From contig JAISET010000198.1 of the NCBI GenBank assembly GCA_031264015.1, forward strand, positions 1 through 64,000: a stretch of 64,000 nt of DNA, read 5' to 3'. Below are positions 17,877 through 36,804 of this stretch, piece by piece. The stretch comes from Deltaproteobacteria bacterium. Its GTDB lineage: Bacteria > Desulfobacterota > Desulfarculia > Adiutricales > Adiutricaceae. The notes under the pieces are model-generated. The model was not told where the DNA came from. It ran no database searches and saw only the letters and a program-made list of their open reading frames with translations. Position numbers and translations under genes: made by a program. Every line of letters begins with the position of its first letter. Positions within the stretch are counted from its first letter, which is position 1.

Positions 17877-19088
17877 CTAGGAGCCGACGATTTCCTGGAG
17901 AGCCTCGGCGTTGGTCTCCAGCCAGTTGAGGCCCCTGAGAAAGTGGGTCAGGTACGACAAGGCCTCGTAACTGTTGATGTTGTCGGCGTCCAGGTAGTAC
18001 CAAAGCTCGGTCAGCCAATAGATGAGGTAGAAGTGGGCCCCGGCCAGCATGCGGACGAAGACGCGCCTCTCCACCGGGCTCAGGGCCAGGGCCGGCGCGT
18101 CCTTGAGAACCCCGTTGTAGCCCCGCACGAAGTTTCGGCAGTCCTCCAGGCGCAGGGCCCCGTCGTTCTCCATGTCCCAGGAGCCGCAGCAGTAGACCAG
18201 GCCGAGGCAGACGTCGAAGATCCTGGCGTCGACCTTGGACCAGTCGAAGTCGAACAGGCCCACGGTCTCCTCGCCGTCGAACTTGACGTTGCCGGCGTGG
18301 TAATCCCCGTGGACCGGGACCTCCAGAAGCGCCCCGTACTCCTCGGGCGAGACGGCGAACCGCTCCATGTAGCCCAGGATCGCGGGCAGGACGGCGTTGA
18401 AGTTGGCGTGGAAGAGGGTCTCCAGGGGCTGGGCGGCCCGCTGCTTGAAGATCCTGACGAAGTCCGGGATGAGCGCCCTGACCTTGGGCTCGGTCTTGCG
18501 CTGGTCGTCGGCGGGGACGAAGGTGGCCGCGGCCTTGTGGTAGCGGGCCAGGAGGGCGCCGAGGTTGACGAACTCCCGGGGCGTGCTCTTGTTCTCGATC
18601 CAGGTGTACTTGTCGAGGCCCCGCAAAAAACGGTAGACGGTGAAGACGCGGCTGACGGTCTTGCCGTTTTTCAGCTCGTTGAGCCTGACGAAGGTGCGCC
18701 CGTCCGCCGTCGGATAGATGCCCGCCGCCTCCTCGAAGCCGTTGGCCAGGACGTGGGCGATCAGGGCGTGCTCCATGGCCACGTCGTTGTCGGTGGCCTC
18801 GGCCTTGTACTTGCGGACAAAATAGTCGGTCCTCTGGCCGTCGCGCTCGATGAGCACGCCGAAGCTGCGGTTGGTGTAGCCGCCGAAAACCTCGTGGATC
18901 TCCTGGATCTGCCCCAGATGGCCGAAATGTTGGTCGAACAGCTCGTAGATCTGGTTGTTGAGGACCTGGGACTCCACGGCGGCGTAGGTCTCCTCCAAAA
19001 CCTTCCTTCCTTTGACCAAATAATCGCGGCACTCCTCGAACTGGTGGGGGCTGACCCTCACTATTTGTTTCATCTTACTAACGTCCAT
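17877..19088 (-). CDS. Choline/ethanolamine kinase-like phosphotransferase (APH/LicA-like fold), paralogue B
   Basis: The protein has 403 residues. The ATG at 19088 is preceded by AGGAGG (19095-19100) six bases away. The catalytic loop VPVHGDYHAGNVKF and the metal-binding GLFDFDWSKVD are the Brenner and DFG-equivalent motifs of the aminoglycoside/choline kinase superfamily. An N-terminal lobe with GGYTNRSFGV and FVRKYKAE (nucleotide loop and lysine) precedes them, and a helical extension of about 70 residues sits in front of the kinase fold. It is clearly paralogous to the kinase at 23114-24352: both share FGGYxNRSFGV, FVRKYKA and FDFDWSK motifs. Substrate is inferred, not shown: position among amine-methyltransferase genes and next to the eut locus favours an aminoalcohol such as choline or ethanolamine. 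Homoserine or sugar kinases share the fold. Confidence 0.7.
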   Translation of the reverse strand: MDVSKMKQIVRVSPHQFEECRDYLVKGRKVLEETYAAVESQVLNNQIYELFDQHFGHLGQIQEIHEVFGGYTNRSFGVLIERDGQRTDYFVRKYKAEATDNDVAMEHALIAHVLANGFEEAAGIYPTADGRTFVRLNELKNGKTVSRVFTVYRFLRGLDKYTWIENKSTPREFVNLGALLARYHKAAATFVPADDQRKTEPKVRALIPDFVRIFKQRAAQPLETLFHANFNAVLPAILGYMERFAVSPEEYGALLEVPVHGDYHAGNVKFDGEETVGLFDFDWSKVDARIFDVCLGLVYCCGSWDMENDGALRLEDCRNFVRGYNGVLKDAPALALSPVERRVFVRMLAGAHFYLIYWLTELWYYLDADNINSYEALSYLTHFLRGLNWLETNAEALQEIVGS

Positions 19089-19719
19089 GGGCAACCTCCT
19101 GGTTTGGCGGGCCTGCGGCGGATGGCCGCGGCTCTCAAAAGGAAAAAGGGTTGTCCTCTATTTAACGCCCTGATGGCCGCTGCCTCCTTAAGCGGTCTCC
19201 AACAAGTTATGGACAAAGAGGATTGGTTTCTGAACGCCGCCCGGACGAGGGAGGCCGGCCGTTCGCGTCGGCGGCCCGGGGGCGCTCAAGACGACTGAAG
19301 CGTGTTCGCGGCGGTTTCGTTGATATGGAGAGCGAAAAAATAAAAAATAAAAAACTCGAGACGCGCCGAAAAAGAGAAAGGCCGTCCCGCATGGACACTA
19401 ATCGACCCGGGGGCGATCTTTGGACAAATATTCGGGCGGCCTGGACGAGCCGAAAGCCGCCGCGGCGACTATAGTCGTATTATACAAGAAAAATGAGGAC
19501 AAGTCCAGCCGTTTGCCGAACGCTGGCCGACAGCCGCCCTACGACGGGCGCCGGACCGCGGCGGGGCGCCAATTTATCAGCCCGGCCTCCAGCGAACCGG
19601 CCGCCGGGGCCTGTTTTCCCGGGCGCCCCTCGGAAACATCCGGCGGGCCGCGCCCCCCGGGCCGCCTTTTGGGCGACCCGGGGGCGGGCTAAAAATCGGC
19701 GGCCGGCCTGGCGCCGGAA
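19089..19719. other. Spacer with no supported gene
   Basis: This 630-bp GC-rich gap lies between the kinase and the MttB-like gene. Open frames on both strands have arginine/proline-rich translations, no domains and no start signals. A short AT-rich patch near 19325-19365 could hold the kinase promoter. Confidence 0.5.
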
Positions 19720-21156
19720 CTACTCGTACCAGACGGCGTCCCCGGCGGGCAGGCCGGAGATGTGCTCCCTGACCTTCCTGTCGATGTCGGCGGCCAGGAC
19801 GTTGGGATTCGGCTTTGTCAGAATCTTCTTGGCCAGGGCGGCGGCCTGGTCGGCGGCGTTGGGCTTGCCGTCGTTGAGCCACTTGCTCCTGAAGCCGCGC
19901 ACCCCGATGCTCGGGTAGTGGGTGACCTTGCGCAGGTTTTTGGCGGTGTGGGGCAGGACCATGTAGTTGCCGCCGGGGCCGGTCTTGTTGATGAGCTCCA
20001 GACAGAAGTCGTTGGCGTCGTAGGGGATGCCCTTCTTGAGGTGCTTGAGATTCAAGGCGATCTCGTTGTCGATGACGGCCTTGGCGAAATCGAAGGCCAT
20101 CAGGCCGCCCAGAAGCCCGCCCATGTTGAACAGGTCGCTGCCGGCCATCAGCGCGGCGGCCGTGTTGAGGCTGGTCTCCCAGCCGTTCTGGACGTCGTTG
20201 GACTGCGAGTTGGTGAGACCTATGTAGCCTCCGGAGGGCACGTTGTAGTAGCGGGCCATCTCGGAGTGGCCCATCTGCAGGATGCCGGTCTCGATGGCCC
20301 CGGGGGCGTAGTCGCCGTTGCGCATGTCGCCCACGGTGGAGAGGACGGCGTAGATGACCTCGGAGCCGGGCCTGATGGCCTGCATCAGAAACGTCAGCGA
20401 CAGGAACTCGGCGTTCCCCAAGGCCAGGGTGCCCAGCAGGCTCATGGGGGAGGTCATGCCGGCGTTGGGGACGATGGTCCCGTAGACCGGCAGGCCCATC
20501 TTGGCCAGGTGAACCACCGAGGCGGTGGACTCGACGTCGTAGGTCAGAGGCGAGATGACCGGACAGTAGTGGTGGTTGATGAAGGGCCTCTTGAAGTAGG
20601 CCTCCTTCCCGCCGGCGATGGTGTAGCCCAGGTCCAGGACCTTCTCGAGGTCGGGGATGGTCGGGGTGTTGGAGCGCACCGGCTTCTTGCAGTTCTTCAG
20701 GGCCGGGTAGAAGCGGTACAGCGACCTCATGTCGGGCGGGGCGTCGTCGGCCAGAATGGAGATGGAGAAGACGTCGAAGCCCTTGAGCTCGTTGATGAGG
20801 TAGGCGATGTTGGCCACGTCGAGGCTGGTGCCCCGGCGCTCCTCGCCGGTGACCGGGTCGACCACGTTGGGGGCCGAGGAGCCGGTGACGACGACCGGCC
20901 GGTCGCCGGGCAGGGTGACGTCGAACTCGGGGATCTGGGCGGTGAAGGTGTAGGTCGGGGGGACCGACTTCATCTTCTCCTCGACGGTCTTCCGGGGGAA
21001 TCTGATCCTGCTGCCGTCGGCCTTGCAGCCGTGCTTTATGAAAATCTCCAAAGCCTCCGGGTTTTTGACCACCATGCCCGTTTCCTCAAGGATGGTCAGG
21101 GACGCCTCGTGGATGTTTTTTTTCTGTTCCTGGGTGAAGAAATTATAAAAATCCAT
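19720..21156 (-). CDS. MttB-superfamily corrinoid methyltransferase without pyrrolysine (COG5598)
   Basis: The 478-residue protein starts MDFYNFFTQEQKKNIHEASL, a typical MttB-family N-terminus, and continues with ILEETGMVV, FPRKTVEEKMK and the TIM-barrel core. It aligns with the pyrrolysine MttB at 25689-27203 throughout. The segment VPSGGYIGLTNSQSNDVQNG covers the pyrrolysine site, which is replaced by an ordinary residue (Gly or a neighbour), and the frame is uninterrupted. Such proteins demethylate quaternary amines such as glycine betaine, proline betaine, carnitine or butyrobetaine and methylate a corrinoid protein. The substrate here is unknown; the neighbours make a choline-type compound attractive. 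The ATG at 21156 is chosen by family alignment; its ribosome binding site is weak. The gene probably has its own promoter in the 525-bp gap upstream, which contains a perfect inverted repeat. Confidence 0.87.
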   Translation of the reverse strand: MDFYNFFTQEQKKNIHEASLTILEETGMVVKNPEALEIFIKHGCKADGSRIRFPRKTVEEKMKSVPPTYTFTAQIPEFDVTLPGDRPVVVTGSSAPNVVDPVTGEERRGTSLDVANIAYLINELKGFDVFSISILADDAPPDMRSLYRFYPALKNCKKPVRSNTPTIPDLEKVLDLGYTIAGGKEAYFKRPFINHHYCPVISPLTYDVESTASVVHLAKMGLPVYGTIVPNAGMTSPMSLLGTLALGNAEFLSLTFLMQAIRPGSEVIYAVLSTVGDMRNGDYAPGAIETGILQMGHSEMARYYNVPSGGYIGLTNSQSNDVQNGWETSLNTAAALMAGSDLFNMGGLLGGLMAFDFAKAVIDNEIALNLKHLKKGIPYDANDFCLELINKTGPGGNYMVLPHTAKNLRKVTHYPSIGVRGFRSKWLNDGKPNAADQAAALAKKILTKPNPNVLAADIDRKVREHISGLPAGDAVWYE

Positions 21157-21374
21157 AATGATTAAACCCGGCGCGCGCCGAGCTGGCGCGTGAAGCCGGC
21201 CTCCTTTCAATGATGTGATGTGATGTGCGGCGCCCCGCTTCCCCGCCGACGTCAAAAAGGACCGGATGTCTGGTGTCGTCATGGTCCGCCCATGATGACG
21301 CCCCGGGGATGCTGATCGGCTCTCGGGCGCCGCCCGACGGTAATTATAACCTCCCTTGTCGCTATGAAGTGGGA

Positions 21375-21978: not shown

Positions 21979-23043
21979 CTAGACGTTGCGGAGCTTGAAC
22001 AGCTCGCGGGGGTTGGCGGAAACCAGGATGGCACCAAGGGCGATGGCGGCGGCTCCCATGTACAAGTAGACCGTGGGCTCCAAAGTGGTGAACAAGGCGC
22101 CGAACAGCACGCCCCACAAGGCGTACGTGACGTTCAGGGCCATGGCCCGGGCCACGCCGGTCATGTTCAGGGCCCTGTACCAATAGACGTAGGAGAACCC
22201 GCCTAGGAAGCCCGCGAGACAGTAGATGGAAAAGGCCGACGTCCTGGTGGCGGAGGTGAACAGCTCCCAAACGGGGGCCAGGCCGAAGTGGGTGGACATG
22301 TAGAGAACGACGATGGGAATGACGAAAATAAAATAGGCCACCGCGCTGACAGCCTCGCGGATGCCCAGGGCGATGTCGGGATCGATCATGTCCATGCCGT
22401 AGGTGGACAGAAGGCCCTCGGAGGCCCAGCCCAGACAGGCCAGGGTGGAGAGGACCATGCCGATGGTGAAATAGACGTCCTTCTCGACGTCCTCGCCCAG
22501 CGGCGCGTAATAGACCAAAAACGACCCGAGGATGCAGAGGACGACCCCGACCCAGACGCGGGCGGGGTTGCGCTCCTTAAATAAGATGGTCGCCAGGACG
22601 GCCGCCAAAGCAGGATAGGCCGCCGTGATGGGCAGGGCGTAGGCGGCGTTGACGAAGGTGATGCCCAGCAGATAGCCGCTCATGCCGATGGGGCCGCCCA
22701 GGATGGCCCCGATGCAGACCATCTTGCCGGGCTTGGTCCGCAGCGTGCGGCCGTACTCCTTGAACTTGCCGGCCCTGATGTTGTGGACGGCCACCCAGAT
22801 CGACGCGAACATGTCGTGCATCAGCGCCCCGCAGAGGGAGAAGGCGACCAGCATGGCGATGCCGGTCCGGAACTCCATCGACGAGGTGTCGTAGCGGGTG
22901 AAAGGCTCGTAGTTCAAGGCCAGGTATAAAACAGTTCCCGAAGCCCCCCAGAGCACGCCGGAAAGGACTCCGGCCAGGATTCCTTTTTTGGCGTGCTTAA
23001 GCTGCTTCTCGTCCAACACTTCCTGCGCGGTTTTTTCGCTCAT
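21979..23043 (-). CDS. EamA/DMT-family transporter (LicB-like)
   Basis: The 354-residue protein carries about ten hydrophobic segments in two EamA repeats (for example GILAGVLSGVLWGASGTVLYLAL near the start and ALPITAAYPALAAVLATILFKER at the end of repeat one). AGGAGGTAATTC precedes the ATG. In lic loci a DMT-family permease (LicB) brings choline into the cell next to the LicA choline kinase, and the same pairing appears here with a kinase gene 70 bp upstream on the same strand. The substrate is therefore likely a choline- or ethanolamine-type cation, by context only. The gene lies between the kinase (23114-24352) and the winged-helix-like gene in a compact three-gene unit. Confidence 0.82.
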   Translation of the reverse strand: MSEKTAQEVLDEKQLKHAKKGILAGVLSGVLWGASGTVLYLALNYEPFTRYDTSSMEFRTGIAMLVAFSLCGALMHDMFASIWVAVHNIRAGKFKEYGRTLRTKPGKMVCIGAILGGPIGMSGYLLGITFVNAAYALPITAAYPALAAVLATILFKERNPARVWVGVVLCILGSFLVYYAPLGEDVEKDVYFTIGMVLSTLACLGWASEGLLSTYGMDMIDPDIALGIREAVSAVAYFIFVIPIVVLYMSTHFGLAPVWELFTSATRTSAFSIYCLAGFLGGFSYVYWYRALNMTGVARAMALNVTYALWGVLFGALFTTLEPTVYLYMGAAAIALGAILVSANPRELFKLRNV

Positions 23044-23113: not shown

Positions 23114-24352
23114 TCAAATGCCCTCGACCACTTTGGCAAGATCGGCCTTGTGGGCTTCAATCCAATCCATGAGCCTAGTGATGTGGAGCAAGTAATAGAG
23201 AGCCTCATAGTCGTTGACCAGTTCGGGGTCCTCATAGAAATACAAGGCGGTGCACCAGTTGATCAGATACTGGCAGCCGGCCGCCATCATCATGGGGAAA
23301 TATTTTTTCTCGGTCTCGTTCAAGGGCTCCAGGCCCGAGAGAGACTTGAGCTGGTTGTTGTAGCCCTCCAGGAAGCAGCGGCAGTCGTCGAGACGCAGCT
23401 GGCCGTCCGTCTCCGGGCGCCAGGAGGAGCAGCAGTAAATCAGAGCGAAGGCGATGTCGAAGAGCCGGACCTCGATCTTGGACCAGTCGAAGTCGAAGAT
23501 GCCGGTGCAGTCCTCGCCGACCCACTTGACGTTCCCGGCGTGCAGGTCGCTGTGGATGGGGGTCTCGGGCATCTTGGCGAAGGCCTCGGCGGGGATCTGG
23601 TTCTTCTTGATGGTCTCGAGGATGGAGGCCAGCTTGGAGTTGAAGAAGGCGTGGAAGATGGAGTCGGGCAGGTTCCTGGCGGCCAGCTTGGAGAAGAGGT
23701 CGACGAAGGACGGCAGCAGGAACTGGATCTTGGGCTCGGCCTTGGCCAGCTTGCCCGGCTTAAAGTCGCGGCCGTAGAAGTGGAACCTGGCCGTCAGGGC
23801 GCCGATGTTGCGGAACTCGGTGGGGCTGTTCTCGTTGTTGACCCAGGTCCACTTGTCCTCGCCCTCGAGGTAGTCGTAGACGGCGAAGTAGCGCTTCAGG
23901 GTCTTGCCGGTCTCGTCCTTGTCCTGCAGGCTGACCATGGTGGTGCCGTTTTTGGACGTGAAGACCTTGGCGGCCTCCTTCAGGCCGTTCGCCAGACAAT
24001 AGTTGATCAGGTTGTGCTCGTAGAGGATGTCGTCGGGGTTGGCCTCGGAGTTGAACTTGGCCTTGTACTTCCGCACGAAGTACTCCTCCTCGCGGCCGTC
24101 CTTGACGGTGACCACGCCGAAGCTGCGGTTGACGTAGCCGCCGAAGATCTCGTAGACCTCCTTGACCTCGCCCAAGTCGTAATACTTCTCCACAACCTCC
24201 TTGATCTGCGCCCGGATGAAAGCGCCGTCGCTCTCCTCGTAGTTGCTCTTGGCCAGCTTGTACAGCGAGGCGGCCTCGATAAGCCGGTCGTTGCAAATGG
24301 CGGCGTCGGCCGCCTTGAAGTGAAGCATTTTGGAGGTGTCCATCTTTGCCAT
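23114..24352 (-). CDS. Choline/ethanolamine kinase-like phosphotransferase (APH/LicA-like fold), paralogue A
   Basis: The 412-residue protein starts at an ATG at 24352 with GGGAG eight bases upstream. It has an N-terminal helical region of about 75 residues, the nucleotide-binding section FGGYVNRSFGV and YFVRKYKA, the catalytic loop TPIHSDLHAGNVKW, and the metal motif GIFDFDWSKIE. These define the APH/choline kinase superfamily. It is a paralogue of the protein at 17877-19088 with the same N-terminal extension. The EamA transporter follows 70 bp downstream, recalling the licA-licB pair, in which imported choline is trapped as phosphocholine. The phosphorylated product here could enter lipids, surface decoration or the neighbouring amine pathway. 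The substrate is not provable from sequence. Confidence 0.72.
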   Translation of the reverse strand: MAKMDTSKMLHFKAADAAICNDRLIEAASLYKLAKSNYEESDGAFIRAQIKEVVEKYYDLGEVKEVYEIFGGYVNRSFGVVTVKDGREEEYFVRKYKAKFNSEANPDDILYEHNLINYCLANGLKEAAKVFTSKNGTTMVSLQDKDETGKTLKRYFAVYDYLEGEDKWTWVNNENSPTEFRNIGALTARFHFYGRDFKPGKLAKAEPKIQFLLPSFVDLFSKLAARNLPDSIFHAFFNSKLASILETIKKNQIPAEAFAKMPETPIHSDLHAGNVKWVGEDCTGIFDFDWSKIEVRLFDIAFALIYCCSSWRPETDGQLRLDDCRCFLEGYNNQLKSLSGLEPLNETEKKYFPMMMAAGCQYLINWCTALYFYEDPELVNDYEALYYLLHITRLMDWIEAHKADLAKVVEGI

Positions 24353-24859
24353 CTGAAAAACTCCCTGGGCAAAAACCCATCTAAGGTTTGTTCTATCCGC
24401 GGTGAGGCGGGCAATCTTCCGGCCCCGACTCGGACGGGCCACTATGGCGCCGCCTGGCGGGACCGGTGAAAATATGAATTCTGACTGGCTCCCCAAGGCC
24501 TCCCGCCCGCCCGAAGGCGCGGGCCAGCAGCCTTGTCGCCGCCGCCCCGGTTTTTTTTCGTTTCCGGGCGGACTGAGAAACGTCTTGTCTTCTGTTCTGG
24601 AAATGGAAAGAGCGCGCGCTTGCTTTTCAAACCGCCGTCCTGGCGGGACGGCCCGGACTTGCCGCCCCGCTTTGGGGCGCCGCAAAATTCCACCGGCGCC
24701 GTTCAAGCCGGCCGCCGCCGCCAAAACCAGGCGACGCCGGCCGAGCCCGGGGACGCCGGCCGGACCCTGGTTCCGGGCGGGCCGGAAGCGGGTCCGGGAC
24801 GGGTCCGCGGCGGGCCCGAAATTATCGCCTCCGACAGGCGGCCCCTCCCGACTCCCCGG
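24353..24859. other. GC-rich spacer with no supported gene
   Basis: This 507-bp gap is between the HAD phosphatase and the kinase. Long open frames exist on the plus strand, but their translations are arginine/proline-rich and antisense to real genes. Low-complexity GGNCCGG-type sequence dominates 24700-24840. Confidence 0.5.
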
Positions 24860-25501
24860 CTACGGGAAGCAGGAGAGAACTTCCGCGAGCTTGTCGCCGG
24901 TCCTCCAGGCGCCCAGGGCGGCCAGCTCCTCCTTGGAGTGCCCGCCGGTGCTCATGGCGAATGTCTTGACCCCGGCCGCCTCCGCGGCCAGCAGGTCCCC
25001 CTTGGAGTCGCAGACGTACAGCGTCTCCGAGGGTCCGGCGCCCATGAGCTCCATGGCCTTCAAAATCATGTCCGGGGCGGGCTTGACGTTCTCGACGTCC
25101 AGCTGGCCCACTATGGCCTGGAAGAAGTCCGCCACCCCCAGGATTTTCAGGGGTTTGACGGGCGTGTCCCGGTTCGAGGCCAGGCCCAGGCCGACGCCTT
25201 TGGCCCTCAGGGCCTCCAGGGTCTCCAGGCCGCCGGGAAACAGCTCCATGGCCAGGTACTCCGGCTCGGTCAGATGGTCCGCGTAGGCCAGGTACCACTT
25301 GTGGTCGTAGCTCCCCCACAGCTGGGTCCAGAGCTTCTCGAAGGTGCAGTTGGGGACGGAGACCTCCGCCAGATAGACCTCGTCGTAGGTGACCTCCCTG
25401 AGCCCGAACTCGGCCGCCAGCAAATTGGCGCTTTTCATGAGGGGCTTGATGGAGTCGACCAAGGTCATGTCGAAATCAAAGATGGCATACTTCAGGGTCA
25501 T
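24860..25501 (-). CDS. HAD-superfamily hydrolase (phosphoglycolate phosphatase-like)
   Basis: The 213-residue protein has all four HAD motifs: I, FDFDMTLVDS with the nucleophile aspartate and general acid (D9 and D11); II, LASNRD; III, the lysine in NVKPAPDM; IV, YVCDSKGD. A C1 cap sits between motifs I and II. The family hydrolyses small phosphomonoesters or phosphonates; the specific substrate cannot be read. Its place between the pyrrolysine mttB and the kinase/transporter unit suggests a phosphorylated aminoalcohol (phosphocholine or phosphoethanolamine), which would make it the counterpart of the kinases. That is inference. The start has only a weak ribosome binding site. It ends in an ordinary stop and lies 188 bp after mttB on the same strand. 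Confidence 0.82.
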   Translation of the reverse strand: MTLKYAIFDFDMTLVDSIKPLMKSANLLAAEFGLREVTYDEVYLAEVSVPNCTFEKLWTQLWGSYDHKWYLAYADHLTEPEYLAMELFPGGLETLEALRAKGVGLGLASNRDTPVKPLKILGVADFFQAIVGQLDVENVKPAPDMILKAMELMGAGPSETLYVCDSKGDLLAAEAAGVKTFAMSTGGHSKEELAALGAWRTGDKLAEVLSCFP

Positions 25502-25688: not shown

Positions 25689-27203
25689 TTAGACCAGGCT
25701 GCCCTTGGTCGGGTCGAAGCCGGGGGTCTTGATCGGCACCCCCAGCTCCTTCTCGGCCTCGACGACGAAGCGCCTGACGTCGTCGGCGACGGAGGCGGAA
25801 AGCGGCTCGACCTTGTGGTTCTGCAGGAGGTCCCTGGCCTTGTTCAGGGCCACCTGGTAGCAGTCGGGGCTGCCCTGCTTCTTCCAGGACTCCATGTTCA
25901 TCCTGTCGAAGAACTTGGGGCGGCTCTGGCTGCGCATGAGCTTGCGGGTGAGCTTGCTCATCATGTAGTTGCCGTGGGGGCCGATCTGGTGGATTTCCTC
26001 GAGGTCCAAATTCTCCTCCGTCACCTCTTCTCCTCGAAGAAGGAACAGAACCATTTGGAGCATGTCGGAGTCCAGAAGAAGCTGCCCGTAGTCGACCGTC
26101 ATGCCGCATTCCAGCATGCCCGCGCCGTAGATGACGTTGGACCCTGCCAACCCAGCCAGCAACGCGGTCAAGGTTTTCTCGTGGCCGGCTTGGGCGCCGC
26201 CCGGGATCTTGCTGTCAGTCTACGTGCCGCCCGTCCAGGAGGGCACCCCGTGGAACTGGGCGATCTGCGCGTTCATGGCGGCCATCATGGCCATCTCGGG
26301 GGAGCCCACGGAGGCGTCGCCCTTCTTCATGTCCAGCTGGGTGGAGGTCCCGCTGCGGAAGATGGGGGCGCCCTTGCTGACGGCCTGGCTCAGAACGGCG
26401 CAGGCCATGAACTCGGCGTTCTGGACGGCCATGGTGCCGACCATGGTGATGGGGCTGGTGCTGCCGGACAGGGCCATGGTGGTGAAGCGGACGGGGATGC
26501 GGTGGCGGGCTCCGTGGATGGCTATCTCGCAACACTCGCTGACGAGACGCAGGGGGCTCACCGGACACGTGCTGATGACCATCAGGGGCTCCAGGCTCAG
26601 GGAGTCCTTGTCGCCCCTGACCATGGCGGCCAGCTGGATCATCTTGTCGACCAGATAGCCGTTGCCGCCGCCCAGGGAGATGGGCTTGGTGGTGTTGTGG
26701 ATCATGGCCTCGAAATTATGCAGCGGGTAGGACTGTGGGGCGACGTCCTGGGAGGCCACGGCGCGGTGGATGATGTCGAACTCGTCTATCCAGTCGGACA
26801 GGCGGGTGATGGCGGCCAGGTCCATCTTGGTGGAGTCCCTCTGCTCGCCGGTGTAGAGGTCGTTGACCCTGACGCCCTCGCCGAAGGGGGTGAAGCTGAC
26901 CCTCTTGCCGCCGACGCGCAGGGCCCTCTCCGGGTCGCGGCCCCTGACGATGAACTGGGAGGGGGCGCTGTCCAGGGCCGCCTCGACCAGATGCGCGGGA
27001 ATGCGCACCCGCTTGATGCCCTTGTCCACCACGCAGCCGATGGAATGAAATATCTCCAGGGCCTCGGCGGAATCGACAAAGACGCCTGTTTTGGCCAGGA
27101 TCTCAAGTCCGGCGTAATGGGTTTCCTTAACCTCGTCCGGCGTCAGTAGGGTGAGCCCGCAGCCTTTCTGCAGCAGCATCCCCGTTTGCACGGCTCTCTT
27201 CAT
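25689..27203 (-). CDS. mttB: Trimethylamine methyltransferase MttB with pyrrolysine at residue 328 (amber readthrough)
   Basis: Two open frames in the same reading frame are joined by a single TAG (minus strand, 26222-26220). Upstream the protein reads FHGVPSWTGGT, and after the TAG it continues TDSKIPGGAQAGHEKTLTAL and then AGSNVIYGAGMLE, the conserved sequence around pyrrolysine in MttB. Full length is 504 residues with Pyl328, close to the roughly 495 residues and position 334 in Methanosarcina. The ATG at 27203 has AAGGAGA seven bases upstream. MttB moves a methyl group from trimethylamine to the corrinoid protein MttC, and pyrrolysine positions and activates the amine. Neither mttC nor pylT/S/B/C/D lies in this window, so they must be elsewhere. 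It is the first gene of the minus-strand amine cluster, divergent from the eut locus. Confidence 0.93.
26220..26222 (-). other. In-frame amber (TAG) codon predicted to encode pyrrolysine
   Basis: The codon is flanked on both sides by conserved MttB coding sequence in one frame, and codon usage looks the same before and after. TAG also serves as a true stop in this genome (for example eutB and the kinase at 17877), so amber readthrough must depend on context or be incomplete. Confidence 0.9.
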
Positions 27204-28267: not shown

Positions 28268-28609
28268 ATGACGCCCGAGAAGCCAAGGCAGATACACGAG
28301 TACGTCCCGGGCAAGCAGGCCACCCTGGCCCACATGATCGCCCATCCCAGCCCGGAACTCTGCCGCCAGATAGGCGTCGAGGACAGCGGGGCCATCGGGC
28401 TCATGACCATCACCCCGGGCGAGGGCGCCATCATCGCCGCCGACGCCGCGGACAAGACCGGCCTGATCAAACTGGAGTTCGTCGACCGCTTCACCGGCTG
28501 CCTGGTCTTCACCGGGGACGTCTCCTCCGTGGAGAGCGCGCTCGACGGGGCGGTCCGCGCCCTGACCGAGGTCCTGGGCTTCTCCCCGGCCCCCGTCACC
28601 AAGACCTGA
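28268..28609 (+). CDS. eutS: EutS, microcompartment shell protein (bent BMC-H type)
   Basis: The 113-residue protein matches EutS closely. The N-terminus contains IHEYVPGKQATLAHMIAHPSP, and the BMC fold follows with GAIGLMTITPGEGAIIAADAA and IKLEFVDRFTGCLVFTGDVSSVESAL. EutS is a circularly permuted single-domain BMC hexamer whose bent shape is thought to help form edges of the ethanolamine microcompartment shell. It is the first gene of the locus, and eutP begins one base after its stop, so translation may be coupled. The ribosome binding site is weak. Confidence 0.95.
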   Translation: MTPEKPRQIHEYVPGKQATLAHMIAHPSPELCRQIGVEDSGAIGLMTITPGEGAIIAADAADKTGLIKLEFVDRFTGCLVFTGDVSSVESALDGAVRALTEVLGFSPAPVTKT

Positions 28610-28610
28610 C

Positions 28611-29156
28611 ATGCCCGCCGCCGCCAGGTCCCCCGACGGCCCGCGGGCCCCGCTCATGGTCATCGGCCCCGTCGCCTCCGGCAAGAGCACGCTTCTGGCC
28701 GCCCTGGGCCTGGGCCCCGGCGGGATCAAAAAGACCGAGGCGCTGACCTACAACGGGGGCATGTCCATCGACACACCCGGGGAGATGCTGGCCATCCCCA
28801 GGTTCTACAACGCCCTGATCCTCAACTCCGGGCGGGCGTCGGTGGTTTTATTGCTCATGGACGGCCGCAAGCCCATGTGGCTGCCGGCCAAAATCTGCCT
28901 GGCCCTCAGGGCCAGGGTGGCCGGAGTGGTCACCAAGACCGACGTCGCCGAGCCGGGGGGCCTCGGCCGGGCCGAGACGGCCCTGACCGCCGCTGGCGTC
29001 GACAAGATCTTTAAAATTTCCTCCGTCACCGGACAGGGGCTTGAGGAACTGAGGGAGTGGCTGGCCGCCAACGGCTGCGCCCTGCCGGACCAAAACGCCG
29101 GGGACGGGGGCGGCGACGGTCAAAACGCCGGCGACGATCCCGACGTCGACAACTAA
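28611..29156 (+). CDS. eutP: EutP/PduV-family P-loop protein
   Basis: The P-loop GPVASGKS (19-26) lies in a short N-terminal strand-loop-helix, followed by MSIDTPGEML (G3-like), VTKTDV (NKxD-like) and ISSVTGQGLEEL (G5-like). This is the EutP/PduV family of small GTPase-like proteins. EutP of Salmonella has been reported to have acetate kinase activity, and PduV is linked to microcompartment positioning; either role would fit. The C-terminal 25 residues are acidic and glycine/asparagine-rich (DQNAGDGGGDGQNAGDD) and look like a low-complexity extension. It directly follows eutS. Confidence 0.9.
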   Translation: MPAAARSPDGPRAPLMVIGPVASGKSTLLAALGLGPGGIKKTEALTYNGGMSIDTPGEMLAIPRFYNALILNSGRASVVLLLMDGRKPMWLPAKICLALRARVAGVVTKTDVAEPGGLGRAETALTAAGVDKIFKISSVTGQGLEELREWLAANGCALPDQNAGDGGGDGQNAGDDPDVDN

Positions 29157-29651: not shown

Positions 29652-31016
29652 GTGATATTAAAGACCAAACTGGCCGGACAGGTGTACGCCTTCAAGAACC
29701 TGACCGACGTCATGGCCAAGGCCAACGACGAGAAGTCCGGGGACGTCCTCCTGGACAGGGCCGCCAAGACCGTCACCGAAAGGACGGCCGCCAAAATCGT
29801 CCTCTCCAGGGTGACCCTCGCGGACATCTACGAGAACCCTCTGCTGGCCCCCGAGAAGGACGAGGTCAGCCGGGTCTTGAAGGAGGACCTCTCGCAGGGG
29901 ATCTACGCCAAGATCAAAAGCTGGACCGTGGGCGAGCTCAGGGACTGGCTGCTCAAAAACGAGACCAGGGGCGAGGACATCGTCCGCGTCTCCCGGGGGA
30001 TCGAGGCCGAGGCCGCGGCGGCCGTGACCAAGCTCATGACCGCCATGGACCTGGTGACGGCGGCGTCCAAAATCAGCGTGCCCACCACCTGCGCCACGAC
30101 CATCGGGCTCCCCGGGACGCTCTCCTACCGCAACCAGCCCAACCACCCGGCCGACGACCTGGAGGGCATCAAGGCCTCCCTGTGCGAGGGCCTGAGCTAC
30201 GGGTCCGGCGACGCCGTCCTCGGGGTCAACCCGGTCGAGGACACGGTGGACAACACCCTGGCCATCATGAACATGCTGCACGACTTCATGGACAAGTGGG
30301 AGCTGCCCACCCAGAACTGCGTGCTGGCCCACGTGACCACCCAGATGAAGGCGGTGGAGAAGGGGGCCCGGGTCTGCTGCCTGTTCCAGTCCCTGGCCGG
30401 CACCCAGCCCGCCAACGACGGCTTCGGGGTCACGGCGGCCATCCTCGACGAGGCCTACGACTGCATCCACCGTTTCGGCACCGCCCCGGGCCCGAACCTT
30501 TTGTACTTCGAGACCGGCCAGGGCTCCGAGCAGTCCATCGACGCCGACTGCGGGGTGGACCTGATGACTTTGGAGGCGCGCTGCTACGGGCTGGCCCGCA
30601 AGTACCGCCCCTTCATGCTCAACAACGTCTCCGGCTTCATCGGCCCGGAGACTTTGTACGACGGGCGCCAGATCATCAGGGCCTCCCTCGAGGACCACTT
30701 CATGGGCAAGCTCCTGGGCATCCCCATGGGCATGGCCCCCTGCTACACCAACCACACCAAGATCAACCAGGACGACCAGGAGATGGCCACCATGCTGCTG
30801 GCCATGGCCGGCGCCAACTACTTCATGGGGGTGCCCGTGGGCGACGACGTCATGCTGGCCTACCAGGACACCAGCTTCCACGACGACGCCGGCCTGCGCG
30901 AGCTGCTGGGCCGCACCCCGGCCCCGGAGTTCTTCGCCTGGATGAGAAAGTTGGACCTGATGGACGAGAGGGGCCGCCTGACCGCCAGGGCCGGCGACGC
31001 CTCGATCTTCTATTAG
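29652..31016 (+). CDS. eutB: Ethanolamine ammonia-lyase large subunit EutB
   Basis: The 454-residue protein has the length and content of EutB (453 in E. coli). Family stretches include GLPGTLSYRNQPNHPADD, SLCEGLSYGSGDAVLGVNPVED, QNCVLAHVTTQM, DGFGVTAAILDEAYD, FETGQGSEQS and GIPMGMAPCYTNHTKINQDD. EutB forms the TIM-barrel active site where adenosylcobalamin-generated radicals convert ethanolamine to acetaldehyde and ammonia, with EutC completing the B12 site. The GTG start at 29652 is supported by GGAGGT just upstream. The gene ends in TAG, here a true stop since the family ends at this point. EutC follows after 245 bp. Confidence 0.97.
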   Translation: MILKTKLAGQVYAFKNLTDVMAKANDEKSGDVLLDRAAKTVTERTAAKIVLSRVTLADIYENPLLAPEKDEVSRVLKEDLSQGIYAKIKSWTVGELRDWLLKNETRGEDIVRVSRGIEAEAAAAVTKLMTAMDLVTAASKISVPTTCATTIGLPGTLSYRNQPNHPADDLEGIKASLCEGLSYGSGDAVLGVNPVEDTVDNTLAIMNMLHDFMDKWELPTQNCVLAHVTTQMKAVEKGARVCCLFQSLAGTQPANDGFGVTAAILDEAYDCIHRFGTAPGPNLLYFETGQGSEQSIDADCGVDLMTLEARCYGLARKYRPFMLNNVSGFIGPETLYDGRQIIRASLEDHFMGKLLGIPMGMAPCYTNHTKINQDDQEMATMLLAMAGANYFMGVPVGDDVMLAYQDTSFHDDAGLRELLGRTPAPEFFAWMRKLDLMDERGRLTARAGDASIFY

Positions 31017-31261: not shown

Positions 31262-32149
31262 ATGGTTTCGGAGACCGACATCAAACAGTACGTGGCCCAG
31301 ATCCTCAGCGAGATGGCCGCCTCGGGGTCGCTCGCCCAACCGGGCCCGGGCCGGCCCGCGACGGGGCCCGCCCCCGGGGGCGACGAGGGCGTCTGGCCGG
31401 ACATCCTGGAGGAGGATCTCTCCTTGGAGATCAACGTGCCCAACCCGCACAACCCGGAGGCCCTGCGCGCGATCAAAAAGGCCACCCCGGCCCGCATCGG
31501 GGTCTGGCGGGCGGGCAACCGCTACCTGACCAAGACCCTCCTGCGCTTCCGGGCCGACCACGCCGTGGCCATGGACGCCGTCTTCACCGACGTCTCCGAC
31601 GAGTGGGTCGCGGGCAACAAGCTGCCCAAGTTCAAGACCAAGTGCGAGAACAAGGACGTCTACCTGACCCGCCCCGACCTGGGCCGCCGCTTCGACCCCG
31701 AGGAGGCCGCCAAGATCAAGGCCCTGGTGGGCTCGCAGAACAAGGTGGTCGTCTTCATCGCCGACGGGCTCTCCACCACGGCCGTGACCGCCAACGCCAT
31801 GGACACGCTCAAGAGCATGACCGCCGGCCTGGCCGCCTCCGGCATCAAGACCTCGCCCCCCTTCTTCGTCCAGTACGGCCGGGTGGGCTCCGAGGACTCC
31901 GTCAGCGAGATCACCGGGGCCGAGGTGGTCGTCTGCCTGATCGGCGAGCGGCCCGGGCTGGTCACCAGCGAGAGCATGTCGGCCTACTGCTGCTACAAGG
32001 CCTATCTGGACATCCCCGAGGCCAAGCGCACCGTCGTCTCCAACATCCACCGGGGCGGCACCCCCTCCGTGGAGGCCGGCAGCTACCTGGCCGACCTGGT
32101 GCGCATGATGCTGGAAAAGAAGGCCAGCGGCCTCGACTTGAAGCTCTAG
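31262..32149 (+). CDS. eutC: Ethanolamine ammonia-lyase small subunit EutC
   Basis: At 295 residues this is the EutC length. The N-terminal helix VSETDIKQYVAQILSEMAAS is separated from the catalytic body by a Pro/Gly-rich linker (LAQPGPGRPATGPAPGG), the layout of an encapsulation peptide that targets the enzyme to the shell lumen. The body contains ARIGVWRAGNRYLTKTLLRFRADHA, VVVFIADGLSTTAV, CLIGERPGL and YLADLVRMMLEKKASG. EutC binds adenosylcobalamin with EutB. The ATG is chosen because it follows GGGGGG and gives the targeting helix. Confidence 0.96.
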   Translation: MVSETDIKQYVAQILSEMAASGSLAQPGPGRPATGPAPGGDEGVWPDILEEDLSLEINVPNPHNPEALRAIKKATPARIGVWRAGNRYLTKTLLRFRADHAVAMDAVFTDVSDEWVAGNKLPKFKTKCENKDVYLTRPDLGRRFDPEEAAKIKALVGSQNKVVVFIADGLSTTAVTANAMDTLKSMTAGLAASGIKTSPPFFVQYGRVGSEDSVSEITGAEVVVCLIGERPGLVTSESMSAYCCYKAYLDIPEAKRTVVSNIHRGGTPSVEAGSYLADLVRMMLEKKASGLDLKL

Positions 32150-32281: not shown

Positions 32282-32938
32282 ATGGCAAAGAACGACCCTT
32301 TGAAGACCAACATTTTGGCCGCCAAAATCATACCCAACGTCAGCCCCGACCTGGCCAGGGAGCTCAACCTGGCGCCGGGACAAAGAAGCCTGGCCCTGGT
32401 GACCACGGACTGCGACGACGTCACCTACACGGCCCTGGACGAGGCCACCAAGATGGCCGACGTCGAGGTGGTCTACGCCAAGAGCTTCTACGGCGGCGCC
32501 GCCAACGCCAACACCAAGCTGGCGGGCGAGATCCTGGGCGTCCTGGCCGGCCCCAACCCGGCCGAGGTCCGCTCCGGCCTCAACGCCCTCAAGGCCTTCA
32601 TCGAGAACGAGGCCTGGTTCGTCTCGGCCAACGAGGAGAACTCCATCATCTATTACGCCCACACCATCTCCCGCTCCGGCAGCTACCTGAGCAAGGTCGC
32701 GGGCGTGGCCGCCGGCGAGTCGCTGAGCTACCTGATCGCCCCCCCGCTCGAGGCCGTCTACGCCCTGGACGCGGCCATCAAGGCGGCGGACGTCAGCATG
32801 GTCGCCTTCTACGGGCCGCCCTCGGAAACCAACTTCGGCGGGGGCCTTCTGACAGGGAGCCAGTCGGCCTGCAAGGCGGCCTGCGACGCCTTCGGGGCGG
32901 CCGTGCAGTACGTGGCCGACAACCCGACGGTCTTCTAA
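32282..32938 (+). CDS. eutL: EutL, trimeric tandem-BMC shell protein
   Basis: The 218-residue protein is EutL-like: two permuted BMC domains with LGPNPAEVRSGL-type and GSYLSKVAGVAAGESLSYLIAPPLEA segments and the final VADNPTVF. EutL trimers have a central pore that opens and closes and can pass large cofactors such as cobalamin; ethanolamine binding keeps it closed in characterised homologues. AGGAGAGG precedes the ATG. It lies between eutC and the aldehyde dehydrogenase. Confidence 0.95.
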   Translation: MAKNDPLKTNILAAKIIPNVSPDLARELNLAPGQRSLALVTTDCDDVTYTALDEATKMADVEVVYAKSFYGGAANANTKLAGEILGVLAGPNPAEVRSGLNALKAFIENEAWFVSANEENSIIYYAHTISRSGSYLSKVAGVAAGESLSYLIAPPLEAVYALDAAIKAADVSMVAFYGPPSETNFGGGLLTGSQSACKAACDAFGAAVQYVADNPTVF

Positions 32939-32963
32939 ACCCCGTCTCAGCGGACGTGACACC

Positions 32964-34484
32964 ATGACAGTGGAAGTGAACGACAGGGACCTGGTCTCCG
33001 TCCAGGAGGCCAGAAACCTGGTCAGGCGGGCGACCGCCGCCCAGCTGGCCTACGCCGGGCTCGACCAGGCCGCTGTGGACCGGGCCGTCGGGGAGGCGGC
33101 CCTGGCCTGCCGCGCCCAGGCCGTCCGGCTGGCCCGGCTGGCCCACGAGGAGACCGGCTTCGGGCGGGCGGAGGACAAGGTCGTCAAAAACCTCTTCGCC
33201 TCCGACGCGGTCTACGAGCACATCAAAAACATGAGGACGGTGGGCGTCATCGAGGACGACCCGGCGCGGCGGGTCTTCTCAGTGGGGGTGCCCGTCGGGC
33301 TGGTCGCGGCCCTGATCCCCTCCACCAACCCGACCTCGACCACGATCTTCAAAGCCCTCATCTCGCTCAAGGCGGGCTGCGCCGTCGTCTTCTCGCCGCA
33401 CCCCGGGGCCAAAAACTGCATCCTGGAGACCGTCGCGGTCATCCGGGGGGCCTTGGGCTCGGCGGGCTTTCCCGAGGACCTGGTCACCTGCCTGACCGTC
33501 CCCACCAAGGAGGCCACCGACGCCTTGATGCGCCACAAAGGGACGAGCCTGATCCTGGCCACCGGCGGCAACGCCATGGTCCAGGCCGCCTACAGCTCGG
33601 GCACCCCGGCCATCGGCGTGGGCCCGGGCAACGGGCCCGCCTACATCGAGAAAAGCGCCGACATCCCCCTGGCGGTCAAGAGGATCCTCGACTCCAAGAC
33701 CTTCGACAACGGGACCATCTGCGCCTCCGAGCAGTCCGTGGTCACCGAGACCTCCGTTAGAAAACAGGTCATGGAGGAGATCGTCAGGCAGGGCGGCTAT
33801 TTTCTGCCCCCCGGCGACTCCGAGCGGGTGGAGCGGGTGCTCATGGGCCCGGGCGGCACCATGAACGCCAAGCTGGTCGGCCGCCCCGTCGAGCACATCG
33901 CCCGCGAGGCCGGCGTGACCGTCCCCCCGGGAGCCAGGGTGCTCCTGGGCCAGGAGACCCGGGTCGGGGAGAAGTTCCCGTACTCCCGGGAGAAGCTCAT
34001 GCCCGTGCTGGGCTTCTTCGTGGAGGAAAACTGGGAGAAGGCCTGCCATAAGTGCATCGAGATACTGTCCCTCGAGGGCGCCGGCCACACCATGACCATC
34101 CACTCCCGCGACGAGGCCGTCATCCGCGAGTTCGGTCTGAAAAAGCCCGTCTCGAGGCTGATCGTCAACGCCCCCGCCGCCCTGGCCGCCATCGGGGCCG
34201 CCTCCGCCCTGGCGCCGTCCCTGACCCTGGGCTGCGGGGCCGTCGGCCGCAACAGCACCTCCGACAACGTGGGCCCCCTGAACCTGATCAACATCCGCCG
34301 GGTGGCCTACGGGCTCAGGGAGCTCGAGGACCTGAGGCCCAAAAACCTCCCGGGCGCGCCGTCGTCGGCGGCCGCCCCGTCCCCGGCCAAGCCGCCGCCC
34401 TCCCCGGCCCCGGGCGGGCCCGACTCCGACCCGGCCTTCGAGGAGCTGGTCAGACGGGTCATGGAGAGACTGGCGACGCTCTGA
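32964..34484 (+). CDS. eutE: Acetaldehyde dehydrogenase (CoA-acylating) EutE
   Basis: The 506-residue aldehyde dehydrogenase carries the catalytic cysteine in DNGTICASEQ (C253), the glycine motif around IGVGPGNGPAYIEKSADI, and the substrate-channel segment PSTNPTSTTIFKALISLK. It converts acetaldehyde, CoA and NAD+ to acetyl-CoA and NADH inside the shell. After the catalytic domain there is a linker rich in alanine, serine and proline, and then a short amphipathic helix FEELVRRVMERLATL at the very C-terminus, which looks like a C-terminal encapsulation peptide. EutE of enterics carries its targeting peptide at the N-terminus; here the N-terminus also has a helical start. The start follows a weak ribosome binding site 26 bp after eutL. 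Confidence 0.95.
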   Translation: MTVEVNDRDLVSVQEARNLVRRATAAQLAYAGLDQAAVDRAVGEAALACRAQAVRLARLAHEETGFGRAEDKVVKNLFASDAVYEHIKNMRTVGVIEDDPARRVFSVGVPVGLVAALIPSTNPTSTTIFKALISLKAGCAVVFSPHPGAKNCILETVAVIRGALGSAGFPEDLVTCLTVPTKEATDALMRHKGTSLILATGGNAMVQAAYSSGTPAIGVGPGNGPAYIEKSADIPLAVKRILDSKTFDNGTICASEQSVVTETSVRKQVMEEIVRQGGYFLPPGDSERVERVLMGPGGTMNAKLVGRPVEHIAREAGVTVPPGARVLLGQETRVGEKFPYSREKLMPVLGFFVEENWEKACHKCIEILSLEGAGHTMTIHSRDEAVIREFGLKKPVSRLIVNAPAALAAIGAASALAPSLTLGCGAVGRNSTSDNVGPLNLINIRRVAYGLRELEDLRPKNLPGAPSSAAAPSPAKPPPSPAPGGPDSDPAFEELVRRVMERLATL

Positions 34485-34935
34485 GCAAAGGTCGGGCCCG
34501 CCTTGGGCGCGGCCAGGCCGCAGGCAGGGCCCGCCCCGGTCCCGAATCTGTCCCGCCCCGGTCCCAAATCGGTCCCGAACCGGGCCCGCCCGGGCCCGAA
34601 AGCGGCCGCCGGCCAGGACGCCCTCCAGTTTTGACCGGCGCCCGCGCCGCGAAGTTTTCACAGCCAGCCGTTCCGCGCGCCGCGGATTACAGCCGCGCGC
34701 GGCCGGAGGCGGGACTAAAACCCCGGCCTCCCCGCCCCCAACCAAACAGCCGGAAACCCCGGGCCGTCGCCCGCCTGAACGCCAGGCGGCCTTGGCCCGG
34801 CCGGGGAAATAAATTACAATAACCATGGGTCAGCGCCCCAAAATCAAGGCCCCGAAAAAGAGGCCCCCAGCCCAGGGCGAGAAGGTCGAGGCTCCCGCCG
34901 AGCCGCCCGTCCCGACCCCGTCTAGGAGAGAAGAA
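34485..34935. other. Spacer between eutE and the first eutM
   Basis: No gene is supported. The DNA is GC-rich with near-repeats of the type GGTCCCGAAxC/GGCCCGAAAGC around 34530-34600. An in-frame extension upstream of the eutM start (34825-34935) would add a Lys/Pro-rich leader, but the ribosome binding site at 34924-34930 favours the later ATG. Confidence 0.5.
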
Positions 34936-35238
34936 ATGGCAACCAACAATCAGCAAGCCCTGGGCTTGATCGAAACCAAAGGCCTGGTCGGCGCCATCGA
35001 GGCGGCCGACGCCATGGTCAAGGCCGCCAACGTGACCCTGACCGGCAAGGTCCTGGTCGGCGGCGGACTGGTGACCGTCATGGTCAGGGGCGACGTGGGC
35101 GCGGTCAAGGCCGCCACCGACGCCGGGGCCGCCGCGGCGGGCAGGGTGGGCGAGCTCAAGAGCGTCCACGTCATCCCCAGGCCCCACCAGGACGTCGAGA
35201 CCATCCTGCCCGCGCCCGAGGCCCCGGCCAAATCCTGA
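34936..35238 (+). CDS. eutM: EutM-like hexameric shell protein (BMC-H), copy 1
   Basis: The 100-residue single BMC domain starts [26 protein letters not shown] and contains [31 protein letters not shown] and [19 protein letters not shown] hexamers tile the flat facets of the shell. The start at 34936 is chosen because AGGAGAG lies five bases upstream and because it gives the usual BMC-H length. A near-copy follows 126 bp downstream; the two differ at a handful of residues and in the tail (PAPEAPAKS here). Confidence 0.95.
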
Positions 35239-35364
35239 CCCCCGGCCTTTGTCCCGCGCTCCCTTTATAAGGGCGCCTCCCCCGCGGCCGACAACGCGGC
35301 CGCGAAAATTCCAACTCCCCCCCCGTCCGAGCCGCGACGGGGCGGCGACAACGAGGATAGTGTT

Positions 35365-35652
35365 ATGGCCAATGATTCCCGGGCCTTGGGCCTGATCGAA
35401 ACCAAGGGGCTGGTGGGCGCCATCGAGGCGGCCGACGCCATGGTCAAGGCCGCCAACGTGAGCTTAGCGGGCAAGGTCCAGGTGGGCGGGGGGCTGGTCA
35501 CCGTCCTGGTCAGGGGCGACGTGGGGGCCGTCAAGGCCGCCACCGACGCCGGGGCCGCCGCCGCCGGAAGGGTGGGGGAGCTTTTAAGCGTCCACGTCAT
35601 CCCCAGGCCCCACCCCGAGGTGGAGCTCATCCTGCCCAAGCCCGCGGTCTAG
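35365..35652 (+). CDS. eutM: EutM-like hexameric shell protein (BMC-H), copy 2
   Basis: The 95-residue BMC-H protein is nearly identical to the preceding one, including long stretches of identical DNA (for example the ATCGAGGCGGCCGACGCCAT region), which indicates a recent tandem duplication or gene conversion. The pore-side stretch is [23 protein letters not shown], and the tail is shorter. GAGGAT precedes the ATG. Two facet proteins can mix in one shell and tune pores or stiffness. eutJ begins 42 bp after the stop. Confidence 0.95.
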
Positions 35653-35694
35653 GGACCAGGCGCCGGGGAATGACTTCCCGGGCGCGGCCCCCCG

Positions 35695-36552
35695 ATGCCC
35701 CCTCCCGACCGCCCCACGGCCGGCCTGCCGACGGCCGCCTACCTGGAGGCCCTGCTCGACAGGCTCAAACGCCCCGTCCGGCCCGCGGACGGCGTCGTCC
35801 GGGTCGGGCTGGACCTGGGCACGGCCTCCGTCGTCCTGACTGTCCTGGCCTCCGACGGCGCCCCCCTGGCCCTGGCCCGGGAGGAGGCGACTGTCGTGCG
35901 GGACGGCCTGGTGCTGGACTACGCCGGGGCCAGGCAGATCTGCCAGAGGCTCAGAAAAAATCTCGAGGACAAGCTGGGGCTGAGACTGGACAGGACGACC
36001 ATCGCCGTCCCCTCGGGCACGGGGGAGCGCGACGCCGCCACCCACCGCTACGTCAGCGAGGCGGCGGGCCTGGAGGTGGAGGCCGTCCTCGACGAGCCGG
36101 TGGCCGCCAACCTGCTTTTGGGCATGGCCGACGGGGCCCTGGCCGACCTGGGCGGCGGGACCACGGGCGCCGCGGCCTTCAAGGACGGGCGGCTGGTCAT
36201 GTCCTTCGACGAGCCCACCGGGGGCCGGCATCTGAGCCTGGTCATCGCCGGGAACATGGGCGTGCCCCTGGAGAAGGCCGAGGCCTATAAAATCGACCCC
36301 GGGAACGCCAGGACCGTGGGCGCTCTGGTGGCCCCGGTCTTAAGCAAGATGGGCGGCATCCTGAAAAAGGGCCTCCGAGACGCCGACGTCAAAGAGATGT
36401 GGGTGGTCGGCGGCACGGCCCTGGCCCCCGGCGCCCAGGCCGTTTTGGCCCGGGAGACCGGCTTCGACGTTTTCATCCCGCCCCATCCGGACCTGGTCAC
36501 CCCGGCCGGAATCGCCCTGGGCTGCCGGCCCTACAAGGCCGAGGCGTTGTGA
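35695..36552 (+). CDS. eutJ: EutJ, actin/Hsp70-fold protein of the eut locus
   Basis: The 285-residue protein has an actin/Hsp70-type ATPase layout: phosphate-1 GLDLGTASVVLTVL, phosphate-2 LADLGGGTTGAAAF, and adenosine motif WVVGGTALAPGA. It has the compact EutJ size and lies beside the shell genes as usual. EutJ is proposed to be a chaperonin-like factor for the locus, with no firmly established reaction. It differs from EutA (also actin-like) in length and in lacking the EutA C-terminal part. Confidence 0.9.
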   Translation: MPPPDRPTAGLPTAAYLEALLDRLKRPVRPADGVVRVGLDLGTASVVLTVLASDGAPLALAREEATVVRDGLVLDYAGARQICQRLRKNLEDKLGLRLDRTTIAVPSGTGERDAATHRYVSEAAGLEVEAVLDEPVAANLLLGMADGALADLGGGTTGAAAFKDGRLVMSFDEPTGGRHLSLVIAGNMGVPLEKAEAYKIDPGNARTVGALVAPVLSKMGGILKKGLRDADVKEMWVVGGTALAPGAQAVLARETGFDVFIPPHPDLVTPAGIALGCRPYKAEAL

Positions 36553-36561
36553 GGCGGCCGC

Positions 36562-36678
36562 AAAGACCAGCCGCGATGACCAGCCGCGATGACTAGGCGC
36601 GATGACTAGCCGCGATGACTAGGCGCGACGACTAGGCGCGATGACTAGGCGCGATGACTAGGCGCGATGATCCGGCGA
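36562..36678. repeat. Tandem repeat of a 13-bp unit, about eight to nine copies
   Basis: The unit is GATGACTAGGCGC with small variants (GATGACCAGCCGC, GACGACTAGGCGC). Copies start at about 36562, 36575, 36588, 36601, 36614, 36627, 36640, 36653 and 36666 with no spacers. It fills most of the gap between eutJ and the next gene. It could vary in copy number by slippage. Confidence 0.9.
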
Positions 36679-36804
36679 GTTTTTGAGGAAATTAGCAAAA
36701 CGATCGGACCGGGCAGTTTTCCCAACAACTCGCAACATTCGCCAACTTTTCAACGGGGGCGCCCTCGGCCGCCCCGGTCGGAATAATCTTTCGGGAGCGA
36801 CACC

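Follow-up and report, generated by a model that had tools for sequence, protein, structure and literature searches.

A TAG-bearing MttB subtype linked to choline-type and ethanolamine genes in the family Adiutricaceae

Introduction

When a bacterial mttB gene carries an in-frame TAG, is that codon read as pyrrolysine (Pyl), and if so, which amine does the enzyme act on? We address both questions for a gene in a 64,000-nucleotide stretch of a deltaproteobacterial genome of the Adiutrix group in the family Adiutricaceae (positions 1 to 64,000 of contig JAISET010000198.1, assembly GCA_031264015.1), which we refer to as the window. To our knowledge, the substrates of the pyrrolysine enzymes described so far are three simple methylamines, namely mono-, di- and trimethylamine (TMA). 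Pyl-decoding deltaproteobacteria with TAG-bearing mttB, dual Sec/Pyl marine ones, have been described before (PMC8318568), and because of this, Pyl decoding here is a further case of a known phenomenon. The organism studied here has in common with them the pyl genes, a TAG mttB and a deltaproteobacterial host, whereas it belongs to a termite-gut, putatively acetogenic family with two mttB subtypes. What is new is the gene subtype and its setting, as Pyl decoding itself was already known.

Results

The window mttB and its in-frame TAG

The gene and the codon in question are:

25689 to 27203, minus strand: MttB-type methyltransferase, very probably Pyl-encoding (the window type); 504 residues with TAG counted as Pyl, terminal TAA.
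26220 to 26222, minus strand: predicted pyrrolysine codon; an in-frame TAG that is codon 328 counted from the ATG, shared by 12 species genomes and aligned with Pyl334.

The gene lies on the minus strand, a point absent from the preliminary description of this DNA, and runs from an ATG at 27203-27201, with a ribosome-binding AAGGAG just 5′ of it, to the terminal TAA at 25689-25691. That description had placed a single in-frame TAG at codon 328, flanked by conserved MttB sequence. Translation with the TAG as O bears this out: no second in-frame TAG is present, the sequence on either side is that of MttB, and the read-through protein scores 564.7 bits against the NCBIfam equivalog TIGR02369 (trimeth_pyl, cut-off 525) and matches Pfam MTTB over its full length. 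The further claim, that the TAG sits at the known Pyl place of MttB, agrees with an alignment to Methanosarcina barkeri MttB (E 1e-103 against MttB in the PDB), in which the TAG falls opposite the modified residue X (Pyl334) of PDB 7xcl. The same structure is the best fold match of an AlphaFold model of the window protein, a model of modest quality and low-to-moderate confidence (pLDDT 62.8) from which we took nothing beyond the fold match and the order of strands. The catalytic residues Gly110, Met249, Pyl334, Tyr364 and Gly372 are all retained. Two of these, Gly110 and Tyr364, are fully conserved in Pyl MttB according to earlier work, which also assigned the catalytic residue roles (PMC9842639), and both are present in 12 of 12 window-type sequences.

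The same gene occurs in 11 other species genomes at 86-95% identity, each time with TAG at the same codon. The hosts are deltaproteobacterial MAGs from termite guts, a MAG assigned to Candidatus Adiutrix, and strain Smac51, which has a complete genome; for most of the MAGs, a termite-gut origin is indicated by isolate names and a termite study (PMC9137090). Among the 12 window-type genes, 69% of the differences 3′ of the TAG fall at third codon positions, and the codon differences there, summed over non-independent pairs, are 4217 synonymous and 1133 nonsynonymous. By these counts, the region after the TAG is evolving as protein. Since the same TAG recurs in 11 other species genomes and is followed by protein-like evolution, it does not reflect chance or a sequencing error.

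Pyl decoding machinery and other Pyl genes

The preliminary description proposed that the organism decodes TAG as pyrrolysine, and named pylT (CUA), pylS, pylB, pylC, pylD and mttC as genes to look for elsewhere in the genome. The pyl genes are all present, on contigs C258 and C19. ARAGORN identified a tRNA-Pyl (pylT) with anticodon CUA on C258 (L016:1564-1636), the fold of which has 1 base between the acceptor and D stems, a six-pair anticodon stem and a 3-nt variable loop. It is followed by pylSn and pylSc and, further along the contig, by pylB and pylC; pylD is on the separate contig C19. PylSn (TIGR03912, 100.7 bits), PylSc (TIGR02367, 226.2 bits), PylB (349.1 bits, cut-off 348.2) and PylD (154.7 bits, cut-off 150.05) all score over their cut-offs, and pylC, at 243.0 bits, is slightly below its cut-off of 248.3 but adjoins pylB. 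MttC/MtbC-type corrinoid proteins were found in the genome as well, none of them adjoining the window mttB.

A second copy of the pylSc end, 87% identical, is located some 2.5 kb downstream of the first (L016 2796-3047 and 5552-5806), and between the copies lies a PD-(D/E)XK transposase-family gene that separates pylS from pylB, which looks like an insertion with partial duplication. Two neighbouring PylB-like radical SAM matches on C114 (L018, 17072-18883) are below the PylB cut-off.

Two more genes of known Pyl families carry a TAG, both on contig C120: a classical TAG-mttB (649.7 bits) and, as the third Pyl gene of the genome, an mtbB for dimethylamine methyltransferase (L019 5839-7250, in-frame TAG at codon 349), which reaches 477.6 bits when read through (cut-off 369). 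A corrinoid protein gene lies near them on the same contig. Two MttB matches had been flagged for an inner TGA and were set aside: the TGA of C120:32722-34137 is read as the terminal stop, and for the match on C68 the TIGR02369 search gives no inner stop.

In the 37 family genomes compared, PylSc occurs together with a TAG-bearing MttB in 16, and both are missing from 19, with the gene alone in one (68% complete) and PylSc alone in one. Both are thus present in 16 of the 18 genomes with either (Fisher 2e-8, kinship ignored). The congener G005 (92% complete) has neither PylSc over the cut-off nor a window-type mttB. G023, in the same family, has PylSc, and no TAG-bearing MttB was found in it; either the draft assembly lacks the MttB gene or the organism uses Pyl elsewhere. 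Taken together, the Pyl cassette, the conserved TAG and the co-occurrence with PylSc support the proposal that the organism decodes TAG as pyrrolysine. We consider it very probable that the window TAG is read in this way, and infer that Pyl is actually inserted at codon 328.

TAG as both stop and Pyl codon

We ran a simple codon-usage gene caller on the window and on own-genome contigs L016-L025. The called genes number 127, and 51 of them end at TAG, including the three Pyl genes; the rest amount to about 39% true TAG stops. Window genes that stop at TAG include the lyase genes eutB and eutC, those for the HAD protein, the transporter and the non-Pyl MttB, and the kinase gene at 17877. The preliminary description had named eutB and this kinase, which reading the stops confirmed, and its view that TAG serves as both stop and Pyl codon is supported by the called genes. 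As TAG also ends many other genes, read-through must compete with release. For a GC-rich Pyl-decoding bacterium, the share of TAG stops appears high (own-genome contigs only).

When we scanned codon usage for more genes with TAG read-through, the three real Pyl genes came up together with five other cases, in each of which a TAG-ended gene is followed by the next gene in the same frame. We judged these to be chance adjacency: HAD then kinase, EutT then EutA, shikimate kinase/DHQ synthase then chorismate synthase, a case upstream of a non-Pyl MttB on C152, and a short ORF preceding the corrinoid gene.

A separate MttB subtype

In a phylogenetic tree, the window type forms its own branch (100/100) outside classical bacterial MttB and M. 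barkeri MttB, the rooting resting on long-branched non-Pyl MttB sequences and archaeal MttB being represented by one sequence. The window type does not group with characterised TMA MttB, its best matches beyond the family are only 41-45% identical (395 genomes of the phylum), and the clade was seen only in the termite-gut family Adiutricaceae. It shares with MttB (M. barkeri 7xcl; bacterial mttB, PMC8318568) the fold, the TAG site, Gly110, Met249, Tyr364 and Gly372. In contrast, it is 36-45% identical to classical MttB, has a one-residue insert after the Pyl motif (GGTOTDSKIPGG), and neighbours choline and ethanolamine genes instead of mttC or pyl genes. It also differs at residue 289, which is Tyr in 28 of 28 other sampled MttB sequences and Arg in 12 of 12 window-type sequences. 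Because this residue, by the strand order of the AlphaFold model, ends the barrel strand just before the strand running into the Pyl loop, it is plausible that Arg289 changes the substrate pocket. From these sequence comparisons, and given the classical TAG-mttB and TAG-mtbB on C120, the window gene is probably not the TMA enzyme of the genome, or not the only one, a point that the preliminary description missed.

One classical-type MttB on a long branch (L105, G030:C99:1161-2564) has lysine at the Pyl site in place of the TAG. This natural replacement of Pyl by Lys occurs in a genome, G030, that has pylS and a further TAG-mttB.

A choline-type gene cluster

Downstream of the window mttB, on the same strand, are the following genes:

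24860 to 25501, minus strand: HAD-family phosphatase-like protein; Pfam HAD_2 E 3e-32, conserved synteny beside the Pyl MttB.
23114 to 24724, minus strand: APH-family kinase, LicA-like, choline-kinase/MthK-like; Pfam APH, HSDLHAGN Brenner motif, synteny. The true start is probably near 24350, and the part upstream of it looks non-coding.
21979 to 23043, minus strand: EamA/DMT transporter; Pfam EamA, PDB 7b0k LicB E 7.6e-18.
19720 to 21282, minus strand: non-Pyl MttB superfamily protein, MthB/MtgB-like quaternary-amine methyltransferase; Pfam MTTB, no TAG. The start is probably near 21159.
17877 to 19094, minus strand: second APH-family kinase, MthK-like; Pfam APH, HGDYHAGN motif, TAG as true stop.

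The sole solved relative of the transporter is the choline permease LicB, and the solved proteins closest to the non-Pyl MttB are MtgB 2qne and 9yce. The order of Pyl MttB, HAD phosphatase, APH kinase, EamA transporter and non-Pyl MttB is fixed over four genera, with the second APH kinase on the same strand wherever the compared DNA reaches far enough. A divergent eut operon is present in the compared loci of three of the four genera; in the fourth, represented by Smac51, both EutB genes lie about 3-6 kb from the cluster on the opposite strand, beyond the compared stretch. No corrinoid or methyl-THF methyltransferase gene was found inside the cluster, and the extra gene in the Smac51 cluster is a CarboxypepD-reg protein, not a gene of either kind.

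A related system has been described in Eubacterium limosum by Jiang and colleagues (PMC12155760). There, choline is phosphorylated by MthK, and MthB, a homologue of MttB without Pyl, takes one methyl group off the phosphocholine; an EamA transporter is encoded between the genes, and growth ends at dimethylaminoethanol; such gene pairs were also reported in deltaproteobacteria and insect guts. As in that cluster, an MttB-superfamily gene, an MthK-like kinase and an EamA transporter are adjacent here, so that the non-Pyl MttB, the transporter and the choline-kinase-like gene are shared, the match being one of family and gene order only. Unlike the E. limosum system, which stops at dimethylaminoethanol and has MttB proteins without Pyl, the window cluster also includes genes for a Pyl MttB and for a HAD phosphatase, contains no mthA or mthC, and is linked to an ethanolamine microcompartment.

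The ethanolamine microcompartment and a variant EutB

The divergent eut operon comprises:

28268 to 29156, plus strand: microcompartment shell protein (28268-28609) and EutP/PduV-like protein (28611-29156), the start of the operon; Pfam BMC, PduV-EutP.
29652 to 31016, plus strand: EutB variant, ethanolamine ammonia-lyase large subunit; Pfam EutB E 1e-192, TAG-ended.
31262 to 32149, plus strand: EutC, ethanolamine ammonia-lyase small subunit; NF003971 294.8 bits, over cut-off, Pfam EutC, TAG-ended.
32964 to 34484, plus strand: acetylating acetaldehyde dehydrogenase, EutE-type; TIGR02518 685 bits, over cut-off.
32282 to 43098, plus strand: remainder of the operon, with shell proteins, EutJ-like, EutT, EutA, PduS/RnfC-like and a shell protein; Pfam and NCBIfam.

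The operon shares EutB, EutC, the acetylating aldehyde dehydrogenase, EutA, EutT and shell proteins with the Eut ethanolamine operon, but its EutB is altered at an active-site residue. We take Arg160, Gln162, Asn193, Glu287 and Asp362 (E. coli numbering) to be the EutB active-site residues, the letters of which match 3abo. Mapped to that structure, the window EutB keeps the first four and has Ala in place of Asp362. This Ala362 is present in 10 of 10 window-type genomes with a readable residue (loci including L131, L120, L121 and L132), and Asp362 in seven of seven family genomes that have EutB but no window-type MttB. Separate, canonical EutB copies occur in addition in four window-type genomes (G008, G011, G030 and G036). 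In E. coli EutB structures, Asp362 presumably contacts the substrate amino group, and its loss fits an N-methylated amine substrate.

Discussion

We hypothesize that the window MttB uses Pyl to demethylate a tertiary amine derived from choline, namely dimethylethanolamine or its phosphate, an assignment drawn from sequence and gene context to which we give about an even chance. Pyl methyltransferases are the type that handles tertiary amines, and here one is encoded at the very step for which the preceding demethylation would supply such an amine. The amber codon at position 328 would be read by tRNA-Pyl(CUA), onto which split PylSn/PylSc would load the Pyl supplied by PylB, PylC and PylD; the Pyl of the MttB-fold enzyme would form an adduct with the tertiary amine, and the methyl group would pass to a corrinoid protein encoded elsewhere. 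In the proposed route, the substrate and order of steps of which are our reading of the genes, choline would be taken up by the LicB-like transporter and phosphorylated by the APH kinase. The non-Pyl MttB would then remove the first methyl group, as E. limosum MthB does, the HAD enzyme would possibly dephosphorylate the product, and the Pyl MttB would remove the second methyl group. Finally, the D362A EutBC would cleave N-methylated or free ethanolamine to acetaldehyde in the microcompartment. Termite-gut Adiutricaceae have been described as putative acetogens (PMC9137090), which fits entry of the methyl groups into the Wood-Ljungdahl pathway. That the Pyl MttB (acting on dimethylethanolamine or its phosphate), the non-Pyl MttB and the Asp362-changed lyase together carry choline anaerobically all the way to acetaldehyde, by way of demethylated amino alcohols and with no release of TMA, is a more tentative proposal, somewhat short of an even chance. 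In a search of open-access papers, we found no description of a Pyl enzyme for dimethylaminoethanol or of one tied to ethanolamine ammonia-lyase.

Free TMA is most likely not the substrate of the window MttB, although the protein passes an NCBIfam model named for TMA methyltransferase. The main rival to the dimethylethanolamine reading draws on this score and places the lyase first. The D362A EutBC would be a B12-dependent lyase converting choline or dimethylethanolamine to acetaldehyde and TMA or dimethylamine, and the Pyl MttB a true TMA (or dimethylamine) methyltransferase that removes the amine. In its favour are the strict co-occurrence of Ala362 with the window-type MttB and the acetaldehyde-type aldehyde dehydrogenase, and no CutC choline TMA-lyase scores over the cut-off in the genome (best glycyl-radical match 467.6 bits, cut-off 1050). 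However, the EutB amine contacts Arg160, Gln162, Asn193 and Glu287 are unchanged and therefore leave little space for three methyl groups, the genome already has a classical TAG-mttB and an mtbB, and the non-Pyl MttB, kinases and phosphatase of the cluster would be left unexplained. We regard a lyase-first route as unlikely.

Still less probable, in our judgment, is an ordinary duplicate of the TMA methyltransferase with no shift in substrate, its neighbours serving general methylamine and amino-alcohol metabolism. The conserved catalytic residues and the equivalog score would suit such a duplicate, but the deep separate clade, the change of an otherwise invariant Tyr289 to Arg, and the fixed linkage with the EutB variant and choline-type genes argue against it. 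Finally, it is hardly credible that the TAG is a real stop, leaving a pseudogene or truncated protein, or that it encodes an amino acid other than Pyl: true TAG stops are common here, but this TAG and the protein downstream of it are conserved in 12 genomes, the genome has a pyl cassette and three TAG genes of known Pyl families, and congener G005 has neither pylSc over the cut-off nor the window-type mttB.

Because about 39% of called genes use TAG as a stop, this genome is a good test case for how UAG read-through and termination coexist. If the dimethylethanolamine reading is true, it would widen the use of the 22nd amino acid, through a conserved Pyl enzyme tied to an ethanolamine microcompartment and to the uptake and phosphorylation of choline. 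This would also account for how gut bacteria that are putatively acetogenic might use choline beyond dimethylethanolamine and make no TMA.
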